Below are positions 25,695 to 33,168 of a stretch of DNA of 64,000 nt, one piece after another. Position 1 is the first letter of the stretch. Each line of letters begins with the position of its first letter. The stretch is taken from the NCBI GenBank assembly GCA_938001865.1, contig CALLAW010000083.1:1-64000 (forward strand). The letters are read 5' to 3'. The notes beneath the pieces are model-generated. The model saw nothing but the letters and a program-made list of their open reading frames with translations. It searched no databases and was not told where the DNA came from. A program made the position numbers and the translations under genes. The DNA is from an uncultured Saprospiraceae bacterium. GTDB taxonomy: Bacteria > Bacteroidota > Bacteroidia > Chitinophagales > Saprospiraceae.

Positions 25695-26567
25695 CTAGAG
25701 CTTGATGATCTTGGCAGTCTTTACTCTACCCATAGAATATGTCTTTACCAAATAGACTCCTGGATTCAAGTGTGAAATATCGGTAGAAAGTGATTTAGAG
25801 CTTGCAGCATGAGTAAAGACCTCTTGGCCATTGACATTGAATATACCTACACGATCTTGAAGTTCCTCTGAAGTGATGGTAAGTTCGTCCACGACTGGGT
25901 TAGGAAAGAAACTGATATTCTGCGGCTCCACTTCAGTGGTACTGAGTACTAATTCGCAATCTCCAAAATAAAATTGAGATACCGTCTCTATCAATGTATT
26001 GCCAGGGTTTTGCAATTCGATACGTTCAATAGCCTCTACTGAAGAGAAGCCTACGAACTGCGCAATATTGCTTGCGTCATCGTATGTCACTGTCTGTAGC
26101 AACTCTGTCGACACACCGTATACTCTCATCTCTATGGCTCCAGATCCTATGGGTGAGTATAAGTCAAACGCTATATTGTGTACTGGGATATTCCCAGTAA
26201 AGAGTACATGGGTAGAAGAGAAAAAATTGTTAGATGATATCCCAGGATTTGGAATATCAAAGAATGACCCACTATTTACAAAAAGCATTGTAGCTCCGAC
26301 ACTGGCACCACTATTTGTAAATATTACTCCTTCTTGTATTTCTCCAGCAGGATAACACTCTCCCTCAAGTGAACTCACTGCTGTGCCGCATTTTTGGAAA
26401 TCGTCGACAGGTCCGCCTTCAAAATCTTCAAATGTAAGCGAACTAGGATTAGGGCATGCCTCAAAAAATGCATCCAACGTAGTATAAAATTGGATAGGAT
26501 CTTGCTGAGCTACAAGCGACAAAGTAGTCAGAAAAATAAATAGAGTCAAAAATACAATCTTTTTCAT
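25695..26567 (-). CDS. Secreted protein with T9SS type A sorting domain
   Basis: The 290-residue protein has a signal peptide (1-20, ending LVAQ), a beta-sandwich domain of about 190 residues with 'LTFEDFEGG' near its start, as in choice-of-anchor type domains, and a type A sorting domain from 'ISFFPNPVVDELTI' to 'RVKTAKIIKL'. It is expected on the cell surface. It is the first gene of a three-gene minus-strand run (35 and 14 bp gaps). The binding function is unknown. Confidence 0.85.
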   Translation of the reverse strand: MKKIVFLTLFIFLTTLSLVAQQDPIQFYTTLDAFFEACPNPSSLTFEDFEGGPVDDFQKCGTAVSSLEGECYPAGEIQEGVIFTNSGASVGATMLFVNSGSFFDIPNPGISSNNFFSSTHVLFTGNIPVHNIAFDLYSPIGSGAIEMRVYGVSTELLQTVTYDDASNIAQFVGFSSVEAIERIELQNPGNTLIETVSQFYFGDCELVLSTTEVEPQNISFFPNPVVDELTITSEELQDRVGIFNVNGQEVFTHAASSKSLSTDISHLNPGVYLVKTYSMGRVKTAKIIKL

Positions 26568-28940: not shown

Positions 28941-30287
28941 CTAATAACCCAAAAGAAAACTTAGATCTAATCCTAGCTGATTAATGCTCAAGTCACTTCG
29001 CCTTGATGGATGTATCCTCCAATAAGGTTGGAGTGAGAGACGTGATGAGAGATGGTACTTCATCCTCAGATCCATGCAGATCTGAGAGTCTCCACTCCTT
29101 GCCGAGTCAACCAAGTGGTTATTCGTCGTCATGTTAGAGGTAGATTTGACTTGTTGGTAGATGTATGCGCTACCGACGGAGATTGATAGTCTAGAGGAGA
29201 TACGATAATCTGTGGAGAGAGAGAGTCCGATTTGATTGATCTTTGTGATTGTGGTATTAGATGTTGCTGATCCATAGTCTTCCATTTCTTGAGTTGTTGA
29301 TTCTTCAGTGTCACTCCCACCGATAGCTACTGTATTGTCTAGTTCTCTTTTGGGGAGTGAGGACCACCACTGTCCATCTTGCCGTAAGTGACTATAGATA
29401 AGATTGGAAGAGATACTCAGCCGCTGAGCTCGTGGAAGCTTATGATTCAGACCAAATCCAACATTGAATCCCCTCTTAGCTCGACGCGAGTAGAGATATC
29501 CTACGGTCAGCTGAGGGACGAATTTACGATATTTGGGTACGTCTCTTTGGGCTGATAATTCTAAGCTTCCCCTTGATCTAGAGAGGAGGTCACTCAGTGG
29601 ATAGCGAGACAGAGATGCTAGGCTTGGGATTACTTGTCTTACTTCTTGATGATCTCCGATGTGCCCAGTATGATTGCTCGTCGCTTGTGAGACCTGTTGT
29701 GGGTGATCAGCTGAGGTACTCGGAGTATGACTCTGGGATACGGAGATATCTATCGGCTTGATCGGGATAGAGAGACCTGATAAGATGAATGGATCTAATC
29801 CTTGTCTACTCCCTCTGATAGAGATCTTTGCTGGCGAAGTTGTTTGATGGATCGCTGTTTGATGGATCGCTGTTTGATCGGATGTTGATTGGGGGAGTTG
29901 TGGGGTCTGGCTTACTCTATCCTTATATGTTGAGTCCTCTTTTTGTTTGACTTGATCAATATCCTCCTGGATAAGAGGAGTCTGAGGTGACGTACTCTGA
30001 TCGACATGCTCAGGACTTGATAGCGAGTATTCTGTGTGAGCATTATGACCTTTACCTAGAGTGATAGATTGCAGCTGATCTGGCTCGATCGAGAGATTTG
30101 ACGATGGCAAGTGACGGTGGTGCATCGTATTGAGTATCGCCAATCCGAGTAATAGTATGCTCGTGACAAGGTACAGGGGAGCTTGCCCCCTTCTAGTGAG
30201 AGGAAGTTCTCTATCCAGACGACTCGACATTTCAGTCCAGCCTTTATTGAGTAATTGTTGATCTGTTGATCTATTTTTAGCCTGCAT
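28941..30287 (-). CDS. Dual membrane-spanning anti-sigma (Dma)-like protein: cytoplasmic anti-sigma segment, one inner-membrane helix, linker, outer-membrane barrel
   Basis: The 448-residue protein has no signal peptide. Residues 1-36 are a short cytoplasmic segment with 'GWTEMSSRLDRELPLTRR', the pattern of anti-sigma segments beside Bacteroidota ECF factors. One membrane helix follows (about 38-56), then a roughly 190-residue linker rich in Ser, Thr, Gln and His with short repeats ('AIHQTAIHQT'), then beta strands to the end (about 256-448, last strand 'QLGLDLSFLLGY'), a barrel pattern. This fits the Dma proteins described in Bacteroides thetaiotaomicron, which join inner and outer membrane and control an ECF sigma factor. 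It overlaps the sigma gene by 11 bp. The Dma assignment is inference. Confidence 0.75.
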   Translation of the reverse strand: MQAKNRSTDQQLLNKGWTEMSSRLDRELPLTRRGQAPLYLVTSILLLGLAILNTMHHRHLPSSNLSIEPDQLQSITLGKGHNAHTEYSLSSPEHVDQSTSPQTPLIQEDIDQVKQKEDSTYKDRVSQTPQLPQSTSDQTAIHQTAIHQTTSPAKISIRGSRQGLDPFILSGLSIPIKPIDISVSQSHTPSTSADHPQQVSQATSNHTGHIGDHQEVRQVIPSLASLSRYPLSDLLSRSRGSLELSAQRDVPKYRKFVPQLTVGYLYSRRAKRGFNVGFGLNHKLPRAQRLSISSNLIYSHLRQDGQWWSSLPKRELDNTVAIGGSDTEESTTQEMEDYGSATSNTTITKINQIGLSLSTDYRISSRLSISVGSAYIYQQVKSTSNMTTNNHLVDSARSGDSQICMDLRMKYHLSSRLSLQPYWRIHPSRRSDLSINQLGLDLSFLLGY

Positions 30288-30819
30288 GGACGGTCTGATT
30301 ATGTTGTTGAGTCAGTAGGGATTGCAATCTTTTTCTTGCTTCTGAGTAATGCCATTTACTTGTTCCTTCTGAGATGTGTTTGAGGTTACTGATTTCGCGA
30401 TGTGTATATCCGTGGATTGCGTAGAGCACGAATACCTCAGCACTTGCATTGGGTATCTGTTCTATGAGAGCCAAGATATCTTCTTCGTAGAGGTGATTCA
30501 GGGCATCGGGTATCTGCTTTTTGTCATTATCACCAATTTCAAGGAGTCTCACTTTTTTCTTTTCTTTCCGGAGATTATCGCAGATGGCGTGATAGATAAT
30601 TTTCTTCATCCAAGGGACCAGCTTTTCGACATCTTTGAGTGATTGAATATTCTTGAATACCTTCATGAAGCCATCATTGATATAGGTGATCAGTGCATCT
30701 TCGTCAGTTGCAAATCTTCGGCAGAGTGGAAGCATCACAGGGAAGTACGTTGTGTATAGCCACTCTTGGGCTCTCCTATCATTGGAGATACAGCCTTGTA
30801 TAGCTTCATTGAGATCCAC
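30277..30819 (-). CDS. ECF-type sigma-70 family RNA polymerase sigma factor
   Basis: The 180-residue protein has region 2 (about 10-95: 'EWLYTTYFPVMLPLCRRFA', 'INDGFMKVFKNI', 'PWMKKIIYHAICDNLRKEKK') and region 4 (about 115-175: 'HGYTHREISNLKHISEGTSK'). Length and order fit ECF factors. It starts with GTG, and no in-frame ATG gives a full region 2. The downstream gene overlaps it by 11 bp and encodes a protein with an anti-sigma-like N-terminus, so the two should form a regulatory pair. Envelope protein genes precede it on the same strand (50 bp gap). Confidence 0.93.
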   Translation of the reverse strand: MDLNEAIQGCISNDRRAQEWLYTTYFPVMLPLCRRFATDEDALITYINDGFMKVFKNIQSLKDVEKLVPWMKKIIYHAICDNLRKEKKKVRLLEIGDNDKKQIPDALNHLYEEDILALIEQIPNASAEVFVLYAIHGYTHREISNLKHISEGTSKWHYSEARKRLQSLLTQQHNQTVHAG

Positions 30820-30869: not shown

Positions 30870-31622
30870 TTAGAACAAAAATCCTAAGTTAAATACGATT
30901 CGACGGTATTGTCTGTCTTCTCTTACGATGCCTCCATTCCAAGGATGGATCGCCTCTAGTTCGTTCTCTTGGAGCTGTAGTCCCACGCCTATGGTCGTCC
31001 TGAAACCTCCCGACCCAAATCTCACGCCTACAGATGTCTGACTGTAGAATCCTCCTTGGTTAGAGATGATCTGCTGACTCTTACTGCTTGCGATTCCATA
31101 TCCAAGTTTGACATCGAGATAGGGACTCTTATGTGCATCTTTGACATAGCTACGAGCTTGGATATACAGAGGGACGAAGCTTCTCATCTGGTTGAAGTTA
31201 TAATTGTCATACCCGATACCCACGCCTGCGGCCAAGAAGTGCTTCCATTGATAGAGATAGCTAAGACTGATACCTACTCCGGAGTCAGTATTGTTGAAGT
31301 AGAGTTTGTTTTGCCAGTCAAAGTACCACCGATCAGTTGGGAGTGGTTCTCTTACTTTGGGTGGTTTGGTCTTAGTTGGCTTACTCTTACCATAGAGTAC
31401 TTGGCCATCATCTAGGATCGTTCTGATCTCGTTAGTCGGGATAAATACTTGAGTATCACCCTCAGTCTGGATTACGACGTAACCTCCTATTTCGTATTTG
31501 ATCAGCTTACCTGTGATTGGCTCACCTTGCTTGAGGATCACCCGATCTTGACTAGAGAGTATCGTGCTGATAGATAGCATGAGTACGATGCCTACGATTG
31601 CTCTTTGTATTATCTGTATCAT
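30870..31622 (-). CDS. Predicted outer-membrane barrel protein in the sigma factor cluster
   Basis: The 250-residue protein has a signal peptide (about 1-24), then a short beta domain with 'ILKQGEPITGKLIKYEIGGY' and 'VFIPTNEIRTIL', a pattern seen where Bacteroidota proteins sense or bind near the membrane, then barrel strands ('WYFDWQNKLYFN', 'VGISLSYLYQW', 'FRTTIGVGLQL', 'RRIVFNLGFLF') ending in Phe, as BAM substrates do. It lies 35 bp after the LVIVD gene and 50 bp before the sigma factor gene. No exact function is recognised. Confidence 0.75.
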   Translation of the reverse strand: MIQIIQRAIVGIVLMLSISTILSSQDRVILKQGEPITGKLIKYEIGGYVVIQTEGDTQVFIPTNEIRTILDDGQVLYGKSKPTKTKPPKVREPLPTDRWYFDWQNKLYFNNTDSGVGISLSYLYQWKHFLAAGVGIGYDNYNFNQMRSFVPLYIQARSYVKDAHKSPYLDVKLGYGIASSKSQQIISNQGGFYSQTSVGVRFGSGGFRTTIGVGLQLQENELEAIHPWNGGIVREDRQYRRIVFNLGFLF

Positions 31623-31657: not shown

Positions 31658-32929
31658 TTACTCACTTACGACTGGGATGTGACTCAGTAGGACTGGCGTA
31701 TCAGCTACACTCACATCATACTGATAGAAGCCATCACTCCCGATGACGAGGAGGATAGAGTTGGGTAGTGAGATCACATCTGTAGATTTGATCGTCTCGA
31801 GATTAGCGATGAGATTTTTGTCGATCTTGTCAGTCTCGCTTGCATCGAAGATCTTGAGGCCATGCTCTCCTTCGCAGATATAGAGTTGATTATCTCTGAT
31901 GGCTAGACCGTGAGGATTAGTCATAGGATAAGTCTTGATGAGTGTGGGTTGGGTGATCGTAGAGATATCGATGACATCTAGCTGATTGATAAATGACTGA
32001 CAGACACTCCCATTCCTCAAAGTCACGTAAGCTGTAGTACCCTCTACGACGACTGGATCGCATGCTCTTGCATGTTGGAATGTTGAGAGGAGAAATATAC
32101 CCTCAGGATCTGTATTGTCATAGATAAACATCCCAGAGTTAGACCCAATGAAGAGGTACTCCTCATAGGGAAATATCGTCTCGATACCCCATCCTATCTC
32201 ATGTGTAGCGACTCTTGTGAGAGTACTCTGGATATTCCAAGTCATCAAACTCGATTGATCGACATTATACAGATAGTCTCCCACTATTGTAAATCTTGCC
32301 GTAGAACCTCCCGTACCGACTGATCCACCACTCGTAACAGTCGACCCAGCACTGGAGTCAAAGACAGCGACATCTATAGTGCTCTCTAGGAAGAGGGCAT
32401 TGCCTCTCAAAAATCCTCCATCTAGGACGTCTTGATTACAATCAAATGATTCGACGACATTGCTCGAGACATAGTATCCTAGGTAGAGATCATTCCATGG
32501 GTGCTTGTCAAAGGCTTCCTCCTCTCTGTGGACCAATACTGGTGCAGCGAGATTGGTGATGTCTAGTGAGATAATATCCATGACATTGTCAGCATAGAGG
32601 ATATTGTTCTTGATAGCGATATCAAAGTTACCGACGATAGGGTAGAATCCGAGCTGTACAGGATTGCTCGGGTCGACATTATCATAGAGGTGGATACCGT
32701 GGCCTTGCTCATTGATAAACAGGATATCATTGTAGATATAGAGCTTACCTGGATTGACTAAGTCTCTTGGTGACTCTAGAGAGACTGCTTGTCTGATCTG
32801 TGTCGCCGTGAGATAGACTGGATCATATCTTCTAAACTCTCTAATCCCTTCACACTTATCTTGGAGGCAAGATTGGAAGAGTAGTGTCAGCATGAGGATG
32901 GTAGCAAGTGAGATAATTGACTGTTTCAT
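31658..32929 (-). CDS. LVIVD-repeat beta-propeller lipoprotein
   Basis: The 423-residue protein has a lipoprotein signal ending 'LFQSC' (Cys at 21) and several LVIVD-type repeats, seen as 'LYIYNDILFINEQGHGIHLY', 'NILYADNVMDIISLDI' and 'DNQLYICEGEHGLKIFD', which form a beta propeller. It should be an outer-membrane lipoprotein; ligand unknown. It is the first gene of the four-gene minus-strand cluster with the barrel protein, sigma factor and Dma-like protein, and similar propeller plus sigma combinations suggest a surface function under that regulation. Confidence 0.88.
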   Translation of the reverse strand: MKQSIISLATILMLTLLFQSCLQDKCEGIREFRRYDPVYLTATQIRQAVSLESPRDLVNPGKLYIYNDILFINEQGHGIHLYDNVDPSNPVQLGFYPIVGNFDIAIKNNILYADNVMDIISLDITNLAAPVLVHREEEAFDKHPWNDLYLGYYVSSNVVESFDCNQDVLDGGFLRGNALFLESTIDVAVFDSSAGSTVTSGGSVGTGGSTARFTIVGDYLYNVDQSSLMTWNIQSTLTRVATHEIGWGIETIFPYEEYLFIGSNSGMFIYDNTDPEGIFLLSTFQHARACDPVVVEGTTAYVTLRNGSVCQSFINQLDVIDISTITQPTLIKTYPMTNPHGLAIRDNQLYICEGEHGLKIFDASETDKIDKNLIANLETIKSTDVISLPNSILLVIGSDGFYQYDVSVADTPVLLSHIPVVSE

Positions 32930-33168
32930 ATTTATCTAGTATTTTTTTGATTTTAAGTATTGCTCGTTGGATTGATCGGTTGGTCTCTTCGAGTCTGATG
33001 ATCTTTCTATGCATATAGACACTGACTCGAGGTCAAATGGTTGGGTGTTAGAGAAAAAATAATTTTATCCACTGAGATAAGAAAGGACATTCTGTAGGCG
33101 TTTAAGTCATCAATTCACCCAACTTGAGTTCCTAATATTCCTTTAATATATCACAAACTCTACAGACT

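Follow-up and report, generated by a model that had tools for sequence, protein, structure and literature searches.

The closest described relatives of the system presented here are the Dma and Das proteins of Bacteroides thetaiotaomicron and the EcfO-Reo pair of Phocaeicola and Bacteroides, which we cite from the available parts of the respective papers. In Bacteroides thetaiotaomicron, deletion of dma2 raised das2 by 4.54 log2 units together with its operon neighbours, and the vesicle phenotype of Dma2 loss needed das2 (PMC13088901). Both BcpT and Bd-A induced the Phocaeicola pair ecfO-reo (PMC13114119). We take Bd-A to be bacteroidetocin A, for which inhibition of, or binding to, BamA has been described (PMC9308784). 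No paper on anti-sigma factors in Saprospiraceae was found in the limited literature set that we searched.

We analyzed a 64,000-nucleotide stretch (the window) from an uncultured Saprospiraceae bacterium whose draft genome is 3.58 Mb. We conclude that it probably encodes a Dma-type envelope-sensing switch. The genes lie on the minus strand, and read 5' to 3' they encode an LVIVD-repeat lipoprotein-like protein, a small outer-membrane barrel, an ECF sigma factor and a 448-aa Dma-type partner.

33017 to 33043, minus strand: predicted ECF-type promoter, CAACC-N18-GTCT, an exact match conserved before orthologous operons
31658 to 32929, minus strand: LVIVD-repeat protein gene, first of the operon, 423 aa (Pfam PF08309, E 1.7e-7)
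30870 to 31622, minus strand: small outer-membrane protein gene, 250 aa, predicted OmpW-like barrel (AlphaFold2 model)
30277 to 30819, minus strand: ECF sigma factor gene, GTG start, 180 aa (Pfam match and tree)
28941 to 30287, minus strand: Dma-type anti-sigma candidate, ATG start, 448 aa, overlapping the sigma gene

The preliminary description had placed an 11-bp overlap between the sigma gene and the next gene, and the shared bases were indeed found at 30277-30287. It had overlooked the two upstream genes (31658-32929 and 30870-31622) and the promoter-like motif (33017-33043). Elsewhere in the window, the product of a minus-strand gene at 25695-26567 has a secretion sorting domain at its C-terminus (PF18962, E 1e-12).

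In the 180-aa sigma factor, Pfam recognised two domains at scores exceeding the gathering threshold, Sigma70_r2 (E 2.2e-5) and Sigma70_r4_2 (E 6.3e-10). A direct protein search with the 448-aa partner reached only 6 of 60 related genomes; therefore, the relatives were collected through the sigma factor. This gave 30 sigma loci, namely the window itself and the best matches from the 60 related genomes. A long open reading frame with the W motif described below lay directly 3' of the sigma gene in 28 of them, and exactly 11 bp were shared in 17 of these 28 pairs, indicating that the pairing of sigma factor and partner is not due to chance. Among 80 named sigma loci, the W-motif partner was at least 340 aa long in 57 and short in 15; one partner was cut by a contig end, and no motif-bearing partner was found in the other seven.

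The 448-aa partner was modelled by AlphaFold2 from a 25-sequence alignment. The mean pLDDT (63.4) and pTM (0.46) were low because of the disordered linker. The following parts were distinguished.

30207 to 30272, minus strand: cytoplasmic helix, predicted sigma-binding segment, residues 6-27 (22 residues, AlphaFold2 model)
30216 to 30239, minus strand: W-x2-M-x3-L motif, WTEMSSRL, residues 17-24 (conservation in 25 sequences)
30114 to 30182, minus strand: predicted inner-membrane helix, residues 36-58 (AlphaFold2 model and hydropathy)
29523 to 30113, minus strand: predicted disordered linker, residues 59-255 (197 aa, mostly pLDDT below 50)
28947 to 29522, minus strand: predicted eight-stranded OmpA-like barrel, residues 256-447 (model and structure alignment)

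The model has the N-terminal helix and eight-strand barrel that the preliminary description had expected of an AlphaFold check, and the other parts of the layout it had read from the letters were recovered as well. The quoted N-terminal segment, GWTEMSSRLDRELPLTRR, corresponds to residues 16-33 of the partner. The single inner-membrane helix (residues 36-58 in the model) coincides with a hydropathy peak of 1.83 over 19 residues starting at residue 34. The Ser/Thr/Gln linker, put at roughly 190 residues, measures 197, and these three residues make up 35% of it; a low-confidence helix (232-239) is included in the disordered stretch. As for the proposed C-terminal outer-membrane barrel, eight predicted strands fall between residues 256 and 445, with a pLDDT of 65-98 in ten-residue blocks, and the long stretch from 304 to 345, which separates strands 3 and 4, is poorly modelled. 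The barrel aligned with the OmpA transmembrane domain 1qjp at Z 18.5 (rmsd 1.7, 133 of 137 residues, VIA-align), with a Foldseek TM-score of 0.81 on the target. This superposition suggests that the barrel would be closed.

Family searches with the partner gave no Pfam or NCBIfam match above the curated cut-off; the barrel matches were sub-threshold and the N-terminus had none. When 25 members of the partner family were scanned against NCBIfam, at most three matched any one family at E≤0.01. A profile compared with solved structures matched 36 sequences at E≤1, mostly barrels, the best being Opa60 (7.7e-6), and no anti-sigma factor was among the molecule names of the 36 matches listed.

The invariant residues in 25 relatives were M1, W17, L24 and P29, with M20 conserved in at least 90%, and all five are in the cytoplasmic part. 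We pooled the partners of both locus sets (the 30 loci and the 80 named loci), giving 99 distinct proteins. The expression W-x2-[MILVAF]-x3-[LIMV] was found in the first 75 residues of 97 of the 99, barrel-less partners included, and in 10 of 405 windows of equal length taken from elsewhere in these proteins. It is a loose expression, composed after the sequences had been viewed, matching 21.7% of shuffled N-termini, and a motif-bearing open reading frame was preferred where several lay downstream. The chances are about even that the partner belongs to a wider, as yet unnamed Bacteroidota class of anti-sigma factors, with a cytoplasmic helix of about 20 residues carrying W-x2-[MIL]-x3-[LI], interchangeable sensors and, in Saprospirales, a promoter output. 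The sensor parts fitted onto this helix would be either outer-membrane barrels, as in Dma, or short periplasmic tails, and in the Saprospirales branch the switch would control the lipoprotein/small-barrel pair via the CAACC-N18-GTCT promoter. The small barrel protein, as an outer-membrane product of such a response, might then be located next to the barrel that does the sensing. Class I anti-sigma domains are reported near only 6% of Bacteroidetes ECF factors, compared with 32% overall (PMC7406223, available part), and a wider W-motif class, if real, would help to fill this gap. A motif common to barrel-bearing and barrel-less partners offers a handle on the regulation of most Bacteroidota ECF factors.

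For the comparison with Bacteroidaceae, loci of Bacteroides-like genomes stood in for the Bacteroides thetaiotaomicron sequences. A DUF4943 search of 295 genomes of the class matched seven, and four places were fetched. Loci L133 and L134 have a dma2-like order of two other genes, a DUF4943 gene, a Dma-like gene and the sigma gene; this matches the order expected from bt_1555 to das2, the two outer genes being named by position only. The other two were rejected as dma2-like loci: L136 had no sigma factor among its listed open reading frames, and in L135 (330-3345) the DUF4943 gene is preceded by a sigma gene of a different type and, downstream of that, a gene for a protein of 492 aa. The L135 arrangement implies that DUF4943 may accompany other sigma systems too. 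Starting from the sigma factor of one locus, identified as dma2-like by the adjacent DUF4943 gene, we collected sigma relatives in 26 genomes of the family, and these led to 16 complete Dma-like proteins carrying the W motif.

A hidden Markov model of the Saprospirales N-terminus, at E<0.01, matched 2 of 18 Bacteroidaceae rows, 16 of 26 other long rows, 3 of 14 short rows, 2 of 9 rows of the window's own genome (two of the nine not being anti-sigma candidates) and none of 335 decoys. It was too weak to prove Bacteroidaceae kinship, and profile-profile comparison was therefore used. With hhalign, 24 Saprospirales and 16 Bacteroidaceae proteins matched in the N-terminal part with a probability of 93.4 (reversed control, 3.8), a score that may owe part to the hydrophobic helix. 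The C-terminal barrels matched at 97.9, a figure without a control and weak as evidence of kinship, since many small barrels have the same fold. Taken with the barrel model and the conserved gene pair, this profile similarity bears out the earlier claim of a Dma-like layout outside the gut Bacteroides. The window system very probably works like the Dma family, as a distant member of it.

We then placed the sigma factor of the window in a midpoint-rooted tree of 70 sigma factors, in which many inner forks are unresolved and several rows of the own genome are long. The sampled W-motif systems came together in one starred clade (59 rows, 100/95). Two separate starred clades are nested within it: one (18 rows, 99/92) is made up of the Bacteroidaceae Das factors, and the other (26 rows, 99/94) contains the sigma factor of the window. 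This second clade also holds six sigma factors with short partners, so that sensors with and without a barrel are interspersed in the tree.

The genome of the window holds 23 matches to sigma region 2; two of the matching proteins measure about 290 aa and are probably not ECF factors. Besides the window, it has at least seven more sigma genes paired with a Dma-like downstream protein of 448-550 aa (L174, L175, L176 with the sigma gene at contig position 29481, L177, L178, L181 and L186). Four of these seven proteins fit the W expression and three do not; the L177 partner has several W-containing segments ahead of its hydrophobic helix. A Pfam scan of six of the seven gave weak barrel matches below the cut-off in four. 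In other loci, L085, L091, L097, L099 and L112 have short partners (196-237 aa) after the sigma gene and upstream neighbours that look similar by eye, perhaps another conserved trio. The operon on a 4.3-kb contig labelled Thermoanaerobaculia (L067) closely resembles that of L074 from Bacteroidota, and the contig is probably mis-binned.

Upstream of the sigma gene, the LVIVD protein begins with a lipobox-like QSC, as read by eye. The small outer-membrane protein was modelled from 15 sequences with a mean pLDDT of 85.5, and the model has a signal-type helix (2-18), a small beta domain (26-77) and an eight-stranded barrel (98-249). OmpW was the closest Foldseek match, and OmpW 8qxp aligned at VIA Z 15.6 (rmsd 2.4, 154 of 178 residues aligned); the top VIA row was 9nh2 (Z 17.7). 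We judged 29 of the 80 named loci to share the sigma group of the window. Homologues of the LVIVD protein were found upstream of sigma in 15 of these 29 orthologous loci and those of the small barrel in 18, with neither in the 51 others, which include L051 and L065, two excluded loci that could have belonged to the group. No paper treating LVIVD proteins together with a sigma factor and the outer membrane was found in the limited set searched.

The promoter-like motif of the window has a -35-like CAACC at 33039-33043 and a -10-like GTCT at 33017-33020, about 88 bp upstream of the LVIVD gene. It was discovered in 300-bp upstream windows, where the dyad CAAC-N19-GTCT occurred in 10 of 30; any dyad reached at most five in three shuffles. 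Within 3 kb upstream of the sigma gene, CAAC[CT]-N16-18-GTCT was present in the sense direction in 23 of the 29 orthologous loci and in reverse in 2. In 12 of the 23 positive loci the motif lay outside the 300-bp discovery windows. Depending on the locus, the site precedes the sigma gene or the small barrel gene; where the operon is longer, it precedes the LVIVD gene. In 11 operons that begin with the LVIVD gene, the motif was 47-130 bp before that gene in seven, 565 bp before it in one, and, in the other three, near the gene start as called mechanically or slightly within the gene. Independent loci, from other genomes and absent from the discovery set, had the motif in sense in 13 of 20 and in reverse in 1 of 20, compared with a mean of 0.985 loci and a maximum of 4 in 200 shuffles. 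The tested form was missing from 6 of the 29 orthologous and 7 of the 20 independent loci. Among the motif-negative loci are those of G002 and G003, siblings from the same genus, where GTCA variants were seen. Neolewinella aurantiaca (L084) has the lipoprotein, barrel, sigma and Dma-like genes, and there the motif was absent in the tested form.

We also compared LVIVD loci by their distance from the regulator. Beside an orthologous sigma gene, the widened motif (GTC[TA]) was upstream in 9 of 14 loci, 8 of them with the strict form, and beside a paralogous sigma gene it was found in none of 4. Among LVIVD loci not beside a sigma gene, as judged on draft contigs, the motif was upstream in 7 of 12, all strict (shuffle mean 0.19, maximum 2 in 500). 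In two cases, L226 and L231, the contig breaks off some hundreds of bases past the gene, and the motif-positive L231 may have its sigma gene on the next contig; the count without both is 6 of 10. In reverse, the motif occurred in none of the 30 LVIVD loci of relatives, including the 12 apart from sigma. The LVIVD gene thus keeps the motif when it is apart from the regulator, which is good comparative evidence for regulon membership. A genome-wide search gave seven matches, three of them within genes, compared with three for the backward pattern, and thus yielded no trustworthy genome-wide regulon. Individual matches in the own genome were seen before a small lipoprotein-like gene (L194, C86:4434), before a TPR-like gene (L192, C69:11727), both named by eye, and before another sigma gene with a short W-motif partner (L190, C50:32732). 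In Bacteroidaceae, a loose AAC-N17-20-GTC search before das-type genes gave 4 of 20 upstream windows versus 3 of 20 in reverse, which amounts to nothing. By eye, a TGCAGTATTTTT-like box was seen upstream of das-type genes in L163, L164, L140 and L141, with variants in L142, L165 and L143. This box differs from the Saprospirales motif and is a possible Das promoter.

The locus is most simply read as monitoring barrel insertion or outer-membrane integrity, with negative feedback. The cytoplasmic helix with W-x2-M-x3-L would tether the ECF sigma factor to the inner membrane, and this helix would be linked, through the membrane helix and a disordered stretch of about 197 residues, to the OmpA-like barrel, which would need to be inserted in the outer membrane. 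If the barrel were uninserted or disturbed, the anti-sigma factor would be inactivated, whether unfolded, cleaved or pulled away, and the sigma factor would be freed. The freed sigma factor would transcribe from CAACC-N18-GTCT promoters, its own operon first (LVIVD lipoprotein, small barrel, sigma and Dma) and, in relatives, also a lipoprotein/barrel pair located elsewhere. Fresh Dma made from the same operon would then switch the response off. Given what has been reported for Bacteroides and Phocaeicola, envelope stress would be a plausible signal. With the predicted promoter and the lipoprotein and small-barrel genes, an outer-membrane sensor gains named outputs that can be assayed in relatives, Neolewinella aurantiaca (L084) being one of them.

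The barrel might instead act as a surface receptor, with a ligand such as a glycan on its outer loops altering the barrel and the change travelling along the linker to free the sigma factor. The authors of the Dma2 work propose sensing of an unknown glycan (PMC13088901), and the long, low-confidence segment 304-345 could be a recognition loop. The partners also vary widely, as the whole-protein identity of 24 relatives to the window partner is 13-24%. Nevertheless, a flexible linker of 197 residues would, by reasoning, convey a conformational change poorly, and the parts of the Dma-related literature examined do not report a ligand. The induction by BcpT and Bd-A (PMC13114119) and the binding of bacteroidetocin A to BamA (PMC9308784) fit assembly or integrity sensing better. 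We consider a surface receptor possible but rather unlikely.

Another reading concerns the sign of the effect: the partner might not inhibit the sigma factor but be a membrane-bound co-sigma or activator that the sigma factor needs for activity. Sigma-membrane fusions exist in Bacteroidaceae, where five sigma matches lie in open frames of 553-616 aa, two of which were read, and such fusions imply that tethering alone can be used. L166 and L154 are single open frames of 547 and 567 aa with a sigma domain, a membrane helix and a long C-terminal part, resembling Dma3. An activator is at odds with the rise of das2 and its operon on Dma2 loss and with the need of the vesicle phenotype for das2 (PMC13088901), as well as with the finding that interruption of the anti-sigma gene turns genes on in Phocaeicola vulgatus (PMC9308784), and we regard it as very unlikely. 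A third alternative is hardly credible, namely that the start is mis-called and that the true product, lacking the N-terminal 35 residues, is an ordinary outer-membrane protein that carries a signal peptide. The sub-threshold barrel matches and blank N-terminus in Pfam and NCBIfam would suit such a protein, but the only invariant residues in 25 relatives are within the N-terminal 29, and the overlap with the sigma gene is conserved. In addition, no methionine occurs between M20 and M54, and a start at M54, which falls within the membrane helix, would destroy that helix.

The insertion or integrity check that we favour can be compared with the known systems. Dma1/Dma2 with Das1/Das2 have the same membrane helix, disordered tether and C-terminal barrel (PMC13088901), and the cytoplasmic helix of the window partner is the candidate counterpart of their N-terminal anti-sigma segment. 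Their ECF sigma gene is directly upstream, as in the window, for which autoregulation is predicted. The window sigma factor lies outside the Bacteroidaceae Das clade, in another host group, and its promoter-like motif was not seen upstream of Bacteroidaceae das-type genes. The Dma interpretation of the preliminary description therefore stands for the architecture, but the locus is not merely the Bacteroides system carried by a different host. The neighbours of Dma2 are DUF4943 and DUF4858 genes (PMC13088901), whereas the window has the LVIVD lipoprotein and small barrel genes. EcfO-Reo, likened here by its published description, has an anti-sigma factor that crosses the periplasm and reaches an outer-membrane barrel, as in the window model, with the sigma gene upstream and envelope stress as the likely signal; it differs in a regulon with NigD proteins and longer O-antigen (PMC9308784, PMC13114119). 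Dma3 combines the sigma domain, membrane helix, linker and barrel in one chain (PMC13088901), and the window has the same parts in two genes. Finally, class II anti-sigma factors such as CnrY have a cytoplasmic segment of fewer than 50 residues and no class I domain (PMC7406223), and the window partner is alike in both respects. By the description in that paper, CnrY has two helices, compared with one in the window model.
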